DNA from: Flavobacterium sp. M31R6
GTDB lineage: Bacteria > Bacteroidota > Bacteroidia > Flavobacteriales > Flavobacteriaceae
DNA length: 64,000 nucleotides
Direction of reading: 5' to 3'
NCBI RefSeq assembly: GCF_013284035.1
Contig: NZ_CP054141.1
Coordinates: forward strand, 3,100,001 to 3,164,000
Shown: piece by piece, positions 1-3,738 of the stretch
Position numbering within the stretch: position 1 is the stretch's first letter
How the letters are laid out: every line of letters starts with the position of its first letter
Translations under genes and position numbers: made by a program
The notes under the pieces: model-generated
Database searches by the model: none
Told to the model about the DNA's origin: nothing
The model's input: only the letters and a program-made list of their open reading frames with translations

Positions 1-35
1 TAACCAAACCTAATAAAATCATCTATAATCGTTAT

Positions 36-87
36 TTCAAACACTGTGCCAAAACTCAATTAAAGGCAAATAAAATCTACAAAATAC
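36..87 (-). promoter_or_regulatory. Sigma-54-like promoter module, copy A
   Basis: Read on the minus strand, 52-36 is TTGGCAC, five bases, TTGAA. This is the -24/-12 layout of RpoN promoters with correct spacing, but with A where the -12 element usually has C. The upstream 35 bases are shared with copy B at 367-418: 46 of 52 bases are identical, by hand alignment. Transcription would run leftward out of the window from about position 24. The first bases of that RNA include TTAGGTTTGGTT, resembling the RNA behind copy B. No protein gene starts within the visible 24 bases. Confidence 0.4.
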
Positions 88-231
88 ATAATTTTAAACA
101 AAATATAAGATTAATATTTCAATAAAATATTTTGAAACCCCTTTTTTTAAAAATAATCGATTAGCTAATCTTGTGTCAGTCTAGTCAAAATAAAATATGC
201 GAAAGTGGCTTCTACAATTTCGTTATATTGT

Positions 232-262
232 ATAAAAAAGATGCTCCATAAAGGAGCATCTT
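232..262 (-). terminator. Rho-independent terminator of the candidate small RNA
   Basis: Perfect 10-base-pair stem (238-247 with 253-262), loop of five, followed on the minus strand by a run of T from the A tract at 232-239. It lies 230 bases beyond the separate ccs terminator at 495-521, so it does not belong to the ccs gene. Confidence 0.7.
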
Positions 263-355
263 ACTAACTAATTGTAATCGATAATTCTATAGATATTTGA
301 ATGTAAACCAACCTACCAACCTAATCTACAATATCTTGGAGTCATAGAACTATCT
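232..355 (-). ncRNA. Candidate small RNA (about 120 nt) behind a sigma-54-like promoter
   Basis: No reading frame is visible here. The minus-strand RNA would begin just after the sigma-54-like box at 367-383. It has a perfect 9-base-pair hairpin near its 5' end (arms 353-361 and 340-348, loop of 4), then an unpaired GGTTGGTAGGTTGG segment near 311-325. It ends in a perfect 10-base-pair hairpin (262-253 with 247-238) followed by a U tract. Promoter, structured body and terminator in order argue for an independent transcript. The G-rich single-stranded stretch is a plausible mRNA-pairing seed. No known RNA family is asserted. The 5' end may lie a few bases further up, inside the first hairpin. 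Confidence 0.45.
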
Positions 356-366
356 ATGACTAACTT

Positions 367-418
367 TTCAAACACCGTGCCAAAATTCATTTAAAAGCAA
401 ATTATATCTACAAAATAC
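367..418 (-). promoter_or_regulatory. Sigma-54-like promoter module, copy B
   Basis: On the minus strand 383-367 reads TTGGCACG, four bases, TTGAA, close to the RpoN consensus with the right -24/-12 spacing and one deviation in the -12 element. The 35 bases upstream match copy A at 36-87, including a TTTTGTAGAT block. This conservation outside the core suggests an activator-binding site; that part is inference. A transcript from here would start near 355 and meet the terminator at 238-262. Confidence 0.45.
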
Positions 419-486
419 CATTTTTTTAATTAAACGTAAGTTTTGTATTATTTTAAAAAAAAATAAATAACCATTTTGACATGAAA

Positions 487-521
487 CAAAAAAATAAGGT
501 CCAACACGATGCCGAACCTTA
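487..521 (-). terminator. Terminator of the ccs gene
   Basis: Six-base-pair stem (495-500 with 516-521) just beyond the ccs stop codon, followed on the minus strand by seven T (the A run at 488-494). The loop is long at 15 bases, so stability is moderate. Confidence 0.5.
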
Positions 522-546
522 CTAGAATATAAATTAGTTCTAAAAA

Positions 547-3500
547 TTACTTCTTATAAAACTTTCTGTATTTTGGATATGTAATAGCTCCGATTAAAGA
601 TATTGTGCCTAAAGAATACCAAATCCAACTCAATGAATGGGCTTCACCGCTTGCATAGGAATGTAATCCCACCAAATGGAAGTTTACCCCATAATAAGTA
701 AACAAAATAGATATAAAAGCAAACATACTCATTAAATTGAAAGTCCATTTACCTCTTAAAGAAGGTACAAATCGAGCATGAATCACAAATGCATATACCA
801 TAATACTGATTAATGCCCAAGTTTCTTTTGGATCCCAACCCCAGTAACGTCCCCAACTTTCATTGGCCCATTGTCCCCCAAGGAAGTTTCCAATGGTTAA
901 CATAATCAGACCTATTGTCAGTGACATTTCGTTGATGTACGTGATTTCTTTAATATTCAAATCCATTTTCGTTTTGTTCTTTTCATTCGTAAAAAAGATT
1001 AAAAGAAGTGACACAAAACCAAGTATCATTCCCAAAGCAAATGGTCCATAACTTGCAACAATAACTGCAACGTGAATCATTAACCAATACGAATTAAGAA
1101 CAGGCTGCAAGTTTGCAATTTCTGGATCAATCCAGTTTGCATAAGCTGCCGTAAGTATCATTGCAGTTACAAACGCCGCCGAAGCCACAGTCAATTTCGA
1201 TTTAATATCAAAAGCCAATCCAAAGAACATTGTTGCCCAAGCCACATATACAATAGCTTCGTAAGCATTACTCCAAGGTGCATGTCCCGAAATATACCAG
1301 CGAGCACACAATGTAATGGTATGCAATACGAAAAGCACCGCAATAAAAATATGCATTGAATTCACTAAAACATTCAAAACTTTGGACTCCTTAAAGATTT
1401 TAAGAATAGTAAAGAACAGCATCAATATTGCCCCAAATAAGTAAGCGTAAGGCAACTTTTGAAGCAAATCGTACTTGTTATATGCGATTTCAAGATTAAT
1501 TTTATCGTCACTTGGCCTTACTTTACTTCCAAATTTCTTTTGAAAACCGTTGATGCTTTCCAGTAAATCATCTGCAGTTTTATAATTTTTGGATTCGATG
1601 GCATGACTTAAGGTTCCAAAATAAAGTGGCAATATACTTTTAGTGTACGTAGAATCCATTCCTTTCAAACCAGCATGTTCCAATTCTAAATACGAAATCC
1701 ATTTATTGCCTGGATCATTTGGTATTGGAAAAATTCTCAAGATGCTTCCGCTCAAGGCAGATTCCATCAAGTTTACTTTCTTATCCGTTTCAACAAAATC
1801 TTTCTCAAACTGATTTGGATTCCCGGCTTTGTAGGCCGCATCAAGATATGGCGATAATTTATAATTCCCCTTTTCGTCAAAGAAAGAAATAAAAGGCGCG
1901 TATTTATCTTTGGAATCAATTCCGATAATCTTACGGATACTGTCGTTTCCGGATTTAATATAGATAAGCGGAATTTCAATCCACAATTGTGCACTTTGTG
2001 TCATTGACAAAAATACCTGATCCGAATTCATTCCGTTATAAGTATCGGAATGGCTTACTTTTCGTAACAATTCAGATGAGAAAGTATTGATTGGTTTCAT
2101 TCTACCGCCGGCATCCTGAATAATCAATCTACCAAACTTTGCTGCATGTTCCGGCGTAACGGTATAAGCTGTCAATACCGAATCCAATTGTTTTTGCGTT
2201 GGTTTTATCCTAACGTGCCCCGTGTTTTCAGCATGTGAATCTCCTGCCTTTTCATTTGAATGATCATGATTATGTTCTTGTGCAAAACCGGTTAGGCTCA
2301 TAAACAATACCAAAATCGTGATTAATTTTGCTTTTTTATCTTTCACAACATCTAATTTTCTTTTCAAATCGGCAAAACGGGAATGCTTGGTAAACATAAT
2401 AGCCATCATACTAAAAAACAGTAAAAAGTATCCTAAATAAGTAATTGTTGTTCCCCAATAATCGTGATTTACAGATAATACTGTTCCTTTTTCGTCTGGA
2501 TCAAATGAAGATTGAAAAAAGCGATAACCCTCATGATCCAATACATGATTCATGTAAATTCTGGCATCAAACGGTTTTGTCGAATCCTGAACAGTAACTT
2601 GGCTTTCAAAAGAAGAATAGCTTTTCTCAGTTCCTGGATATTTTTGAGCAATAAAATCATTTAGTTTAATCTTAAATGGCAAGACATAAGCTTTGCTTCC
2701 ATAGAAAAACGTATATTCATTCGCCCCAATTTTAACTGTTTTAGAATCCCCAGTTTTCCCTTTGGAACCAATTAACGTCACTATTTCCTCTTTTCCATTG
2801 GCAGAAAGCCTAACTATAAGAGCATCCTCATGATTCTTTTCTTTAAAATCATTTTTGGATTCATAGTCAATTACTCCCGTAACTGCAGGCTCTGGAAAAA
2901 CAAAACGAATATCTCCAATGCTATACAATGAACGCATCATCAAAGGCTGCACAACATCTTTCACCACTTTTCCTTGTAGTTTGTCAGCCATTCGCATAAA
3001 ATCTCCTTCAAAAGGCATTTGAATCGTGTAACTTTCTCCTGTGGTATTGATATTGATTGCTCCCTCAGTAAATTTATTCAAGGCAAAAAGTACATTGTGA
3101 ATGTTTTGCACTTCGCCCGATTTCAAGAAATGTTCTTCACGGCCTCCGGCTCCAGCTTCGACCAATTTAAAGTATAAGCTGCCTTTTGGATCGGGCTTAA
3201 CGTATTCTTTGGCACCCATAATAAAATTTTTATAGTGCACCTCAAACGGATTTCCTGCAAAATCACCCGTCATCTTAAAATCATTGTCGGTAACTGGTGA
3301 CAATAAAAGAGGCTTCTCAAAAACCCTACGCTTCATTTCCCCTTTGTATTCTCCATCAACAAAAAGAGTCAGAAATGTTTTATCCGAATAAAACTGATTC
3401 TCTGCAGCGCCTTCGCGAATCGGCATCATTCCTTCAAAACTGATGTAACGCGTAATAAAAGCACCCGCTATGATAAATATAAAAGCCAAATGCAGAATTA

Positions 3501-3738
3501 AAGTCGCCCATTTCTCTTTTTTAAGCAACTGATAGCGCTTGATATTTCCAATGAAGTTAATCATGAAAAATCCCATGATAGCTTCGAACCACCAGGTATT
3601 ATAAACTAAAATTCGAGCTGTATCGGTATTGTATTTGCTTTCGATAAAAGTTCCTGTTCCCATTGCAATTGCAAAAGTCAAGAATAATAAAGCCATCAAT
3701 CGGGTAGAAAATAGGACAGAGAATAATTTTTTATCCAT
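547..3738 (-). CDS. ccsBA: Cytochrome c biogenesis protein, CcsB-CcsA (ResB-ResC) fusion
   Basis: Inner-membrane haem handling and attachment protein of system II cytochrome c maturation, with the ResB-like and CcsA-like parts in one chain of 1063 residues. The N-terminal part has early membrane segments and a large periplasmic domain. The C-terminal part is multi-spanning and carries RWYISGHAPWSNAYE and the tryptophan-rich haem motif WGRYWGWDPKETW near residue 960. Between them (about residues 475-510) is a hydrophobic segment ending in FAQ and a His-rich stretch, HNHDHSN, possibly metal or haem binding. I chose the ATG at 3736-3738 rather than the upstream in-frame ATG at 3792, because a TAnnTTTG box (TACTTTTG, 3777-3770) lies between them and the protein then starts directly before the first membrane segment. 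It is monocistronic, with a terminator at 495-521. Confidence 0.9.
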   Translation of the reverse strand: MDKKLFSVLFSTRLMALLFLTFAIAMGTGTFIESKYNTDTARILVYNTWWFEAIMGFFMINFIGNIKRYQLLKKEKWATLILHLAFIFIIAGAFITRYISFEGMMPIREGAAENQFYSDKTFLTLFVDGEYKGEMKRRVFEKPLLLSPVTDNDFKMTGDFAGNPFEVHYKNFIMGAKEYVKPDPKGSLYFKLVEAGAGGREEHFLKSGEVQNIHNVLFALNKFTEGAININTTGESYTIQMPFEGDFMRMADKLQGKVVKDVVQPLMMRSLYSIGDIRFVFPEPAVTGVIDYESKNDFKEKNHEDALIVRLSANGKEEIVTLIGSKGKTGDSKTVKIGANEYTFFYGSKAYVLPFKIKLNDFIAQKYPGTEKSYSSFESQVTVQDSTKPFDARIYMNHVLDHEGYRFFQSSFDPDEKGTVLSVNHDYWGTTITYLGYFLLFFSMMAIMFTKHSRFADLKRKLDVVKDKKAKLITILVLFMSLTGFAQEHNHDHSNEKAGDSHAENTGHVRIKPTQKQLDSVLTAYTVTPEHAAKFGRLIIQDAGGRMKPINTFSSELLRKVSHSDTYNGMNSDQVFLSMTQSAQLWIEIPLIYIKSGNDSIRKIIGIDSKDKYAPFISFFDEKGNYKLSPYLDAAYKAGNPNQFEKDFVETDKKVNLMESALSGSILRIFPIPNDPGNKWISYLELEHAGLKGMDSTYTKSILPLYFGTLSHAIESKNYKTADDLLESINGFQKKFGSKVRPSDDKINLEIAYNKYDLLQKLPYAYLFGAILMLFFTILKIFKESKVLNVLVNSMHIFIAVLFVLHTITLCARWYISGHAPWSNAYEAIVYVAWATMFFGLAFDIKSKLTVASAAFVTAMILTAAYANWIDPEIANLQPVLNSYWLMIHVAVIVASYGPFALGMILGFVSLLLIFFTNEKNKTKMDLNIKEITYINEMSLTIGLIMLTIGNFLGGQWANESWGRYWGWDPKETWALISIMVYAFVIHARFVPSLRGKWTFNLMSMFAFISILFTYYGVNFHLVGLHSYASGEAHSLSWIWYSLGTISLIGAITYPKYRKFYKK

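Follow-up and report, generated by a model that had tools for sequence, protein, structure and literature searches.

The window analysed here is a stretch of 64,000 nucleotides (bases 3100001-3164000 of a 4.46 Mb genome in one contig), and at its left end lies part of a gap of ~1.06 kb that is shared by three head-to-tail modules on the minus strand, which we call A, B and C. The gap is bounded on one side by ccsBA, a ResBC-type cytochrome c assembly gene, and on the other by an ECF-sigma/anti-sigma gene pair that is convergent to the array. Each of the three copies consists of a -24/-12 promoter, then 134-148 nt without a gene, then a terminator. The coordinates of all features are collected in Table 1.

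Table 1 Features of the array and its surroundings (window positions, unless a genome coordinate is given).
Feature	Position	Strand	Remarks
Module A	419-232	-	Inside window
Module B	88 to past left edge	-	Partly outside window
Module C	promoter G000:C1:3099675-3099691, terminator to ~3099522	-	Wholly left of window
ccsBA/ResBC-type cytochrome c assembly gene	547..3738	-	PF01578, PF05140; syntenic anchor of array
Terminator-like hairpin behind ccsBA	494..522	-	62-nt piece -15.6 kcal/mol, T-run after hairpin; separates array from upstream gene
Putative operator (upstream element) of module A	391..419	-	One mismatch to pattern; element-to-TTTG 47
Putative operator (upstream element) of module B	60..88	-	No mismatch to pattern
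Sigma-54-type promoter A, TTGGCACGGTGTTTGAA	367..383	-	-24 GG at 381-380, -12 G at 369
Sigma-54-type promoter B, TTGGCACAGTGTTTGAA	36..52	-	Pattern match, minus-strand box
Predicted small RNA A, ~125 nt	232..357	-	Predicted start ~357, 12 nt past -12
Predicted small RNA B, first part	1..26	-	Predicted start; terminator hairpin ends ~G000:C1:3099902, left of window
P1 closing stem, 5' arm	344..354	-	97.7% of P1 cells paired in four A orthologues
Inner stems P2/P3, 5' arm	327..336	-	Four-orthologue fold
Apical loop segment GGTTGGTAGGTTGG	308..321	-	Identical in 4/4 aligned A orthologues
P2/P3 3' arm with internal loop	291..305	-	Four-orthologue fold
P1 3' arm, ATAGAATTATC	280..290	-	Four-orthologue fold
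Intrinsic terminator A, AAGATGCTCC...GGAGCATCTT and T-run	232..262	-	Hairpin 238-262, T-run 232-237
Element sites L238, L239, L240	G000:C1:757353-757381, 763596-763624, 1435223-1435251		Window genome, outside array

The array was first noticed in a sequence-only reading of the window, which described two 52-base blocks and took them for promoter modules of a tandem small-RNA family. The identity it gave for the blocks (46/52 between 36-87 and 367-418) was reproduced exactly, and no ungapped 52-mer match within any of 200 dinucleotide shuffles of positions 1-430 came near it (maximum 33); TTGGCAC-N5-TTGAA is present on the minus strand at 383-367 and 52-36. The few bases visible behind the first block are the beginning of a full second module, as the continuation left of the window shows, and the leftward search that this reading had proposed found a third copy at ~G000:C1:3099522-3099735. 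A tandem paralogous family with -24/-12 boxes and terminators is thus borne out by three copies. Module A had also been described as lacking a reading frame, and stops occur in all three minus-strand frames across 221-372, a check that covered copy A only. An own promoter and terminator with no frame between them, as expected of a base-pairing small RNA, is what the bases of this copy predict. Outside the array a DNA search of the own genome found no significant further copy (best match after the array E 0.012). Across the 4.46 Mb genome the pattern TTGGCAYNNNNNTTGNA has 17 sites, vs 6 for a reversed-pattern control, 3/17 lying within the array and 10 of the 14 others inside open reading frames of >110 aa.

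Relatives of the modules in Flavobacterium

By ccsBA, the closest named relatives are Flavobacterium aquariorum (96%) and F. taihuense (93%), in a search that may omit the own and very near genomes. Searches and synteny together brought the family to 28 modules from 12 genomes of Flavobacterium (the window's, F. aquariorum, F. sp. A45, F. taihuense, F. aquicola, F. sp. HJJ, G135, G173, G180, G282, G310 and G420), 19 with a -24/-12 promoter and nine with a sigma-A-like box, which reads exactly TAnnTTTG in seven of the nine and deviates in F. taihuense and G420. A module was accepted on either box plus a terminator, and the decayed A copy of G135 was left out; this copy, which closely follows ccsBA in L123 (minus stretch 6225-5050, bases 80-190), has lost the GG of its -24 box and retains a weak terminator-like hairpin. 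Between one and five modules are present per locus, lying in the relatives between ccsBA and the next gene; the G173 array is split by an esterase-like gene, and within the G180 stretch covered the neighbours are gpx and a large adhesin-like open reading frame, not ccsBA. Between the modules of F. sp. HJJ (L131:13661-13725) there is a long imperfect inverted repeat, seen by eye, made of GCCACAGATTTACAGAT and its complement, and the G173 array contains a stretch loosely resembling it.

Two profiles were run against 398 Flavobacterium genomes, the own genome included: R1, a structure-free profile of A, B and C, and R2, a structured model of seven sigma-A-type modules. R1 matched 25 genomes at E <= 0.01, and among the ten examined, seven belong to the family (G000, which is the window's genome, G117, G173, G174, G282, G180 and G135); the matches in G375 and G387 are not modules, having arisen through the upstream element before choice-of-anchor-L genes, and that in G193 overlaps an open reading frame. 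R2 matched eight genomes at E <= 0.001, six of them members (the seeds G030, G135 and G180, and newly G117, G310 and G420), with the remaining two, G020 and G062, sitting at the threshold; this genus-wide run, under stricter filters, missed G000. In ten loci R2 gave 56 matches at E up to 1, of which the best 21 were its seven seeds and 14 sigma-54 modules, including F. aquariorum C (1.6e-6), G173 B2 (1.8e-5) and two from the window's genome, A (3.9e-4) and C (5.3e-4), its B copy reaching only 0.064; beyond the best 21, modules were mixed with non-modules, and the weaker, short matches prove little because R2 matches include the similar terminator hairpin. Since R2 was built without any sigma-54 member and sigma-54 modules are nevertheless among its top matches, both promoter classes seem to serve one predicted RNA family. 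A midpoint-rooted FastTree phylogeny of promoter plus RNA, its alignment thus including the promoter bases, placed the nine sigma-A modules in one clade (support 0.96); the sigma-54 modules formed no single clade, and the A copies of F. sp. HJJ, F. aquicola and G420 adjoin the sigma-A clade (0.81).

Of 411 ccsBA loci, the best 80 were read for synteny. The family is present in five of them (L127-L131), those whose ccsBA is at least 89% identical; the other 75, three of which (L168, L195 and L199) stop a few hundred bases past ccsBA at most, gave no convincing module, the nearest being a borderline R2 match in L158 (E 0.048) and a poor -24/-12 match in L184. With the array DNA as query, 36 of 60 genomes (own among them) matched at E <= 0.01; the best match in a relative, G010, contains no module, and a -24/-12 scan of the relatives' loci from this search found modules in the own genome only. 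One match, G030:C4, was later established as a true F. taihuense module.

The gene order bears on a reading in which the modules would be cis-acting, terminator-type leaders of the downstream gene, gpx in several relatives. The last module does lie upstream of gpx on the same strand in A45, aquicola, HJJ, G173, G135, G180 and G420, but in five genomes (the window's, F. aquariorum, F. taihuense, G282 and G310) the gene that follows faces the array, which leaves nothing directly downstream for those modules to regulate, and a promoter-like box and a strong terminator accompany every single module; we regard cis action as distinctly improbable.

Promoter boxes and the 29-bp upstream element

TTGGCAY-N5-TTGWA is present in all three copies of the window's genome, with the GG and TTG(C) separated by the 10-nt gap of a sigma-54 promoter. 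The textbook -12 box is TTGCA; here it is mostly TTTGAA, the base after the TTG being mostly A, not C, among 19 aligned sigma-54 modules. In the same 19 modules the distance between TGG and the -12 TTG is constant and their columns carry ~2.0 and 1.7 bits each, an invariance that is partly built in because the modules were picked by the pattern TGGYAY-N5-TTK, and conservation is lower elsewhere (4-nt spacer 1.2 bits, upstream 0.46, RNA 0.37). A selection-free test started from 33 terminators listed in ten gaps, 29 of which had enough upstream sequence: the -24/-12 pattern lies 85-190 nt upstream of 18 of the 29, whereas 300 shuffles gave 0.48 on average and never more than 3. This excess tells against the modules being a decaying repeat or duplication relic without function, a reading to which the copy number of one to five and the broken A copy in G135 (by eye) do lend something; the loop and terminator are also retained among A orthologues while other bases drift, and we consider a relic very improbable. 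The window's genome encodes one PF04552 match (RpoN) and 12 PF00158 matches (enhancer-binding proteins), of which only the four above 200 bits were counted because PF00158 also matches control genomes without PF04552. Mapping of 5' ends in F. psychrophilum revealed -24/-12 promoters, one of those described lying ahead of a putative regulatory RNA, Rfp36 (PMC9723704).

The block upstream of the -24 box is a 29-bp element. Its pattern was drawn up with modules A and B in view, and within three mismatches the window's genome has five sites, namely A, B and three others, vs none for a reversed control. The three others precede genes with signal-peptide-like starts (by eye): two of the proteins score 41.0 and 47.8 bits for the type IX type C sorting domain (cut-off 40), their genes having predicted leaders of ~300 nt, and the third is a leucine-rich-repeat protein with effector-like NCBIfam matches all far below cut-off. 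In 93 loci (1.85 Mb), several of them fetched because they bear the element, 25 sites were found within five mismatches and no control site; 16 are at modules, five before secreted or surface-type genes, one at L181 (oriented towards an AraC-like gene, with a type IX secreted-protein gene on its other side) and three elsewhere. The three sites outside the array in the window's genome may mark a surface-protein regulon. Choice-of-anchor-L genes of >1300 codons have the element ahead of them in two other Flavobacterium genomes (L124:3771-3799 and L125:4220-4192, TTTG at 47), and the L124 promoter looks intermediate between the sigma-54 and sigma-A types.

A weight matrix made from the nine sigma-A modules scored 13 of the 19 sigma-54 modules above nearly all shuffles (<=6/300 as high); A45_C, G173_A, G173_B1, B2 and B3 and G135_C did not reach that level. 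By best consensus match, 16 modules have TTTG (or the variant box) 46-48 from the element, G173_A being counted among them with only 17/29 consensus matches, and seven have it at 56-58; a recognisable element is absent from A45_C, G173_B1, B2 and B3 and G135_C. The window genome's three outlying sites (L238, L239 and L240) and L124 and L125 likewise have TTTG at 47 or 56.

The sequence-only reading had taken the upstream conservation to mean a shared activator. The conserved block itself stands, whilst the role needs revision: because it also precedes sigma-A-type paralogues and a number of genes of secreted or surface type, the element is unlikely to be just the binding site of the sigma-54 activator, and as some sigma-54 modules lack it, it is probably not what sigma-54 needs. 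Enhancer sites usually lie farther from the -24 box than this element does.

An AraC-like regulator gene, recognised by eye, lies beside ccsBA in six relatives (L181:13260-14432, and likewise L149, L173, L142, L133 and L138), adjoined in most of them by a small secreted-protein gene on the opposite strand, whose type IX sorting domain was tested in L181. It was tried as the source of the element-binding protein and dropped, since the intergenic region carries other repeats (GTTACTAAAAACTGAAAA-like elements, by eye) and the only match within limits is that in L181.

These spacings also feed the alternative that the -24/-12 boxes are not sigma-54 sites, transcription being instead by another holoenzyme (sigma-A through TTTG, or ECF) with TGGCAY part of a regulator site. 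The TTTG of the -24/-12 modules stands 46-48 from the element, as does the sigma-A TTTG in G180 and G310; the G375 adhesin gene carries TTTTGGCATAAATTTG with a clean TAnnTTTG; and the 4-nt spacer is conserved too, which sigma-54 alone would not require. However, none of the 19 sigma-54 modules has a TA placed for TAnnTTTG (by eye), and the GG-N10-G spacing is that of sigma-54 sites and far too short for an ECF -35/-10 pair, and we judge this alternative improbable.

Keeping sigma-54 for these boxes, a wider reading can be offered tentatively, as a speculation we would not bet on: one regulator may act through one element, set in a constant helical phase (46-48 or 56-58 nt ahead of TTTG), at sigma-54 and sigma-A promoters alike, the sigma class having been exchanged under a kept element within a tandem RNA family, and the same element may join the RNAs and type IX secreted surface proteins in one regulon. 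The locus may thus show a regulatory RNA changing its promoter type while the adjacent control site stays, a natural experiment in which paralogues with a common element and RNA scaffold differ in promoter class at one locus across species, and the 29-bp motif offers a handle for seeking the regulator of some type IX secreted surface proteins.

Predicted RNA fold, possible targets and comparable systems

The 142-nt stretch 368-227 folds with a z-score of -4.4. Of the structure first proposed for module A, the single-stranded segment GGTTGGTAGGTTGG (321-308) and the intrinsic terminator are both present, and the 9-bp 5' hairpin is indeed the minimum-energy choice in the window's genome, but it is not conserved in the three other A orthologues, where its bases pair with the 3' part of the RNA. 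In the four closest A orthologues 97.6% of cells pair in P1-P3 plus the terminator (slid versions <=53.3%), one P1 pair varies between CG, UG and UA, and no pair has changed on both sides; 380/500 shuffles scored as high, a control that is uninformative with four rows. The loop GGUUGGUAGGUUGG is the same in these four and differs in the A copies of aquicola, HJJ and G420. Across all 28 modules, a module's own 5' and 3' halves pair at -18.2 kcal/mol vs -14.9 ± 0.55 kcal/mol for permuted halves (0/5000 as low), a preference that is not clear in the B copies of G000, F. aquariorum, A45 and G282, nor in A45_C and G173_A.

Ribosum scoring of the sigma-A set gave a rod of P1, a UGGGGG bulge retained in most of the set, P2 and the loop UAGUAGGUUAGGUUU, with 88.1% of cells paired (0/500 shuffles as high; slid versions <=57.8%). 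Ten cells changed on both sides (1/500 shuffles as high), but six of the ten lie in the terminator, and neither double-change pairs (58/500) nor further pair types (290/500) stand out against the shuffles. Another alignment-folding method on this set gave a different, partial structure, and RNAalifold on 25 modules found no common structure beyond the terminator stem.

No Rfam family reached threshold in window 1-3000 or in L003, L120, L123 and L131, Flavo-1, which had been suggested for comparison, included; Flavo-1 (RF01705), 6S-flavo (RF01685) and Qrr were absent from the matches at E up to 5 in these stretches. Flavo-1 and 6S-flavo are named as non-coding RNAs of Bacteroidetes in PMC2864571. 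The sub-threshold matches were put down to chance: BsrF at window 157-261, plus strand (22.6 bits vs threshold 50, E 0.41), 6A RNA at L003:5505-5550 plus, several microRNA models and one snoRNA.

Two limited searches for targets found none: the complement of the A loop within three mismatches has three sites in the window's genome, two of them in the array, vs five for the control, and copies A, B and C paired with the leaders of the three element-bearing genes no better than chance (nine pairings, 60 shuffles each, best 5/60 as low). This result is one point for the RNAs being decoys or scaffolds of an RNA-binding protein, Csr- or 6S-like, rather than base-pairing regulators, as are the several copies, the conserved G-rich loop and the UGGGGG bulge of the sigma-A set. 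The loops differ, however, among the A, B, C and D types, so that divergent targets fit better than one protein ligand, and the loci scanned gave no 6S-flavo match; we think a decoy role unlikely.

On the sequence evidence assembled here, the locus is probably a tandem array of three paralogous sigma-54-type small-RNA genes whose products work by base pairing in trans. Transcription would be by RpoN-RNA polymerase together with an enhancer-binding protein that drives it, a second DNA-binding protein would act at the element directly upstream of the -24 box, and the RNAs would pair with their targets through the G-rich loop exposed at the apex (UAGGUUGGUAGGUUGG in copy A). The presence of several copies with differing loops may serve dose control or different target sets, as in the Qrr RNAs of Vibrio. 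The targets are the least certain step of this explanation. In F. psychrophilum, the sigma-54-type promoters described precede genes for chaperones, the envelope, gliding motility and exported proteins as well as one putative RNA (PMC9723704), and on these genes and the element data our best guess is that the RNAs may tune surface or envelope proteins.

Searches of the open-access literature, judged by title and the beginning of the abstract, gave no paper describing this RNA family and few papers on sigma-54-driven small RNAs in Bacteroidota. Among known systems, the array resembles Qrr1-5 of Vibrio, controlled by LuxO and sigma-54, in that both comprise several paralogous RNA genes, similar in length, with a sigma-54-type promoter and a terminator apiece. 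It is unlike them in that the Flavobacterium copies lie head-to-tail in one gap, have a conserved element next to the -24 box and include some sigma-A-like paralogues. In Vibrio a second regulator, LuxR, is stated to activate qrr2, qrr3 and qrr4 directly (PMC2680268). Within the genus, the nearest likeness is to Rfp36 of F. psychrophilum (promoter SM4, cluster B419), a putative regulatory RNA listed with a -24/-12 promoter (PMC9723704, Table 2); compared by description rather than by sequence, Rfp36 is mentioned a single time in the main text of that source, as one RNA, whereas the modules here form an array.
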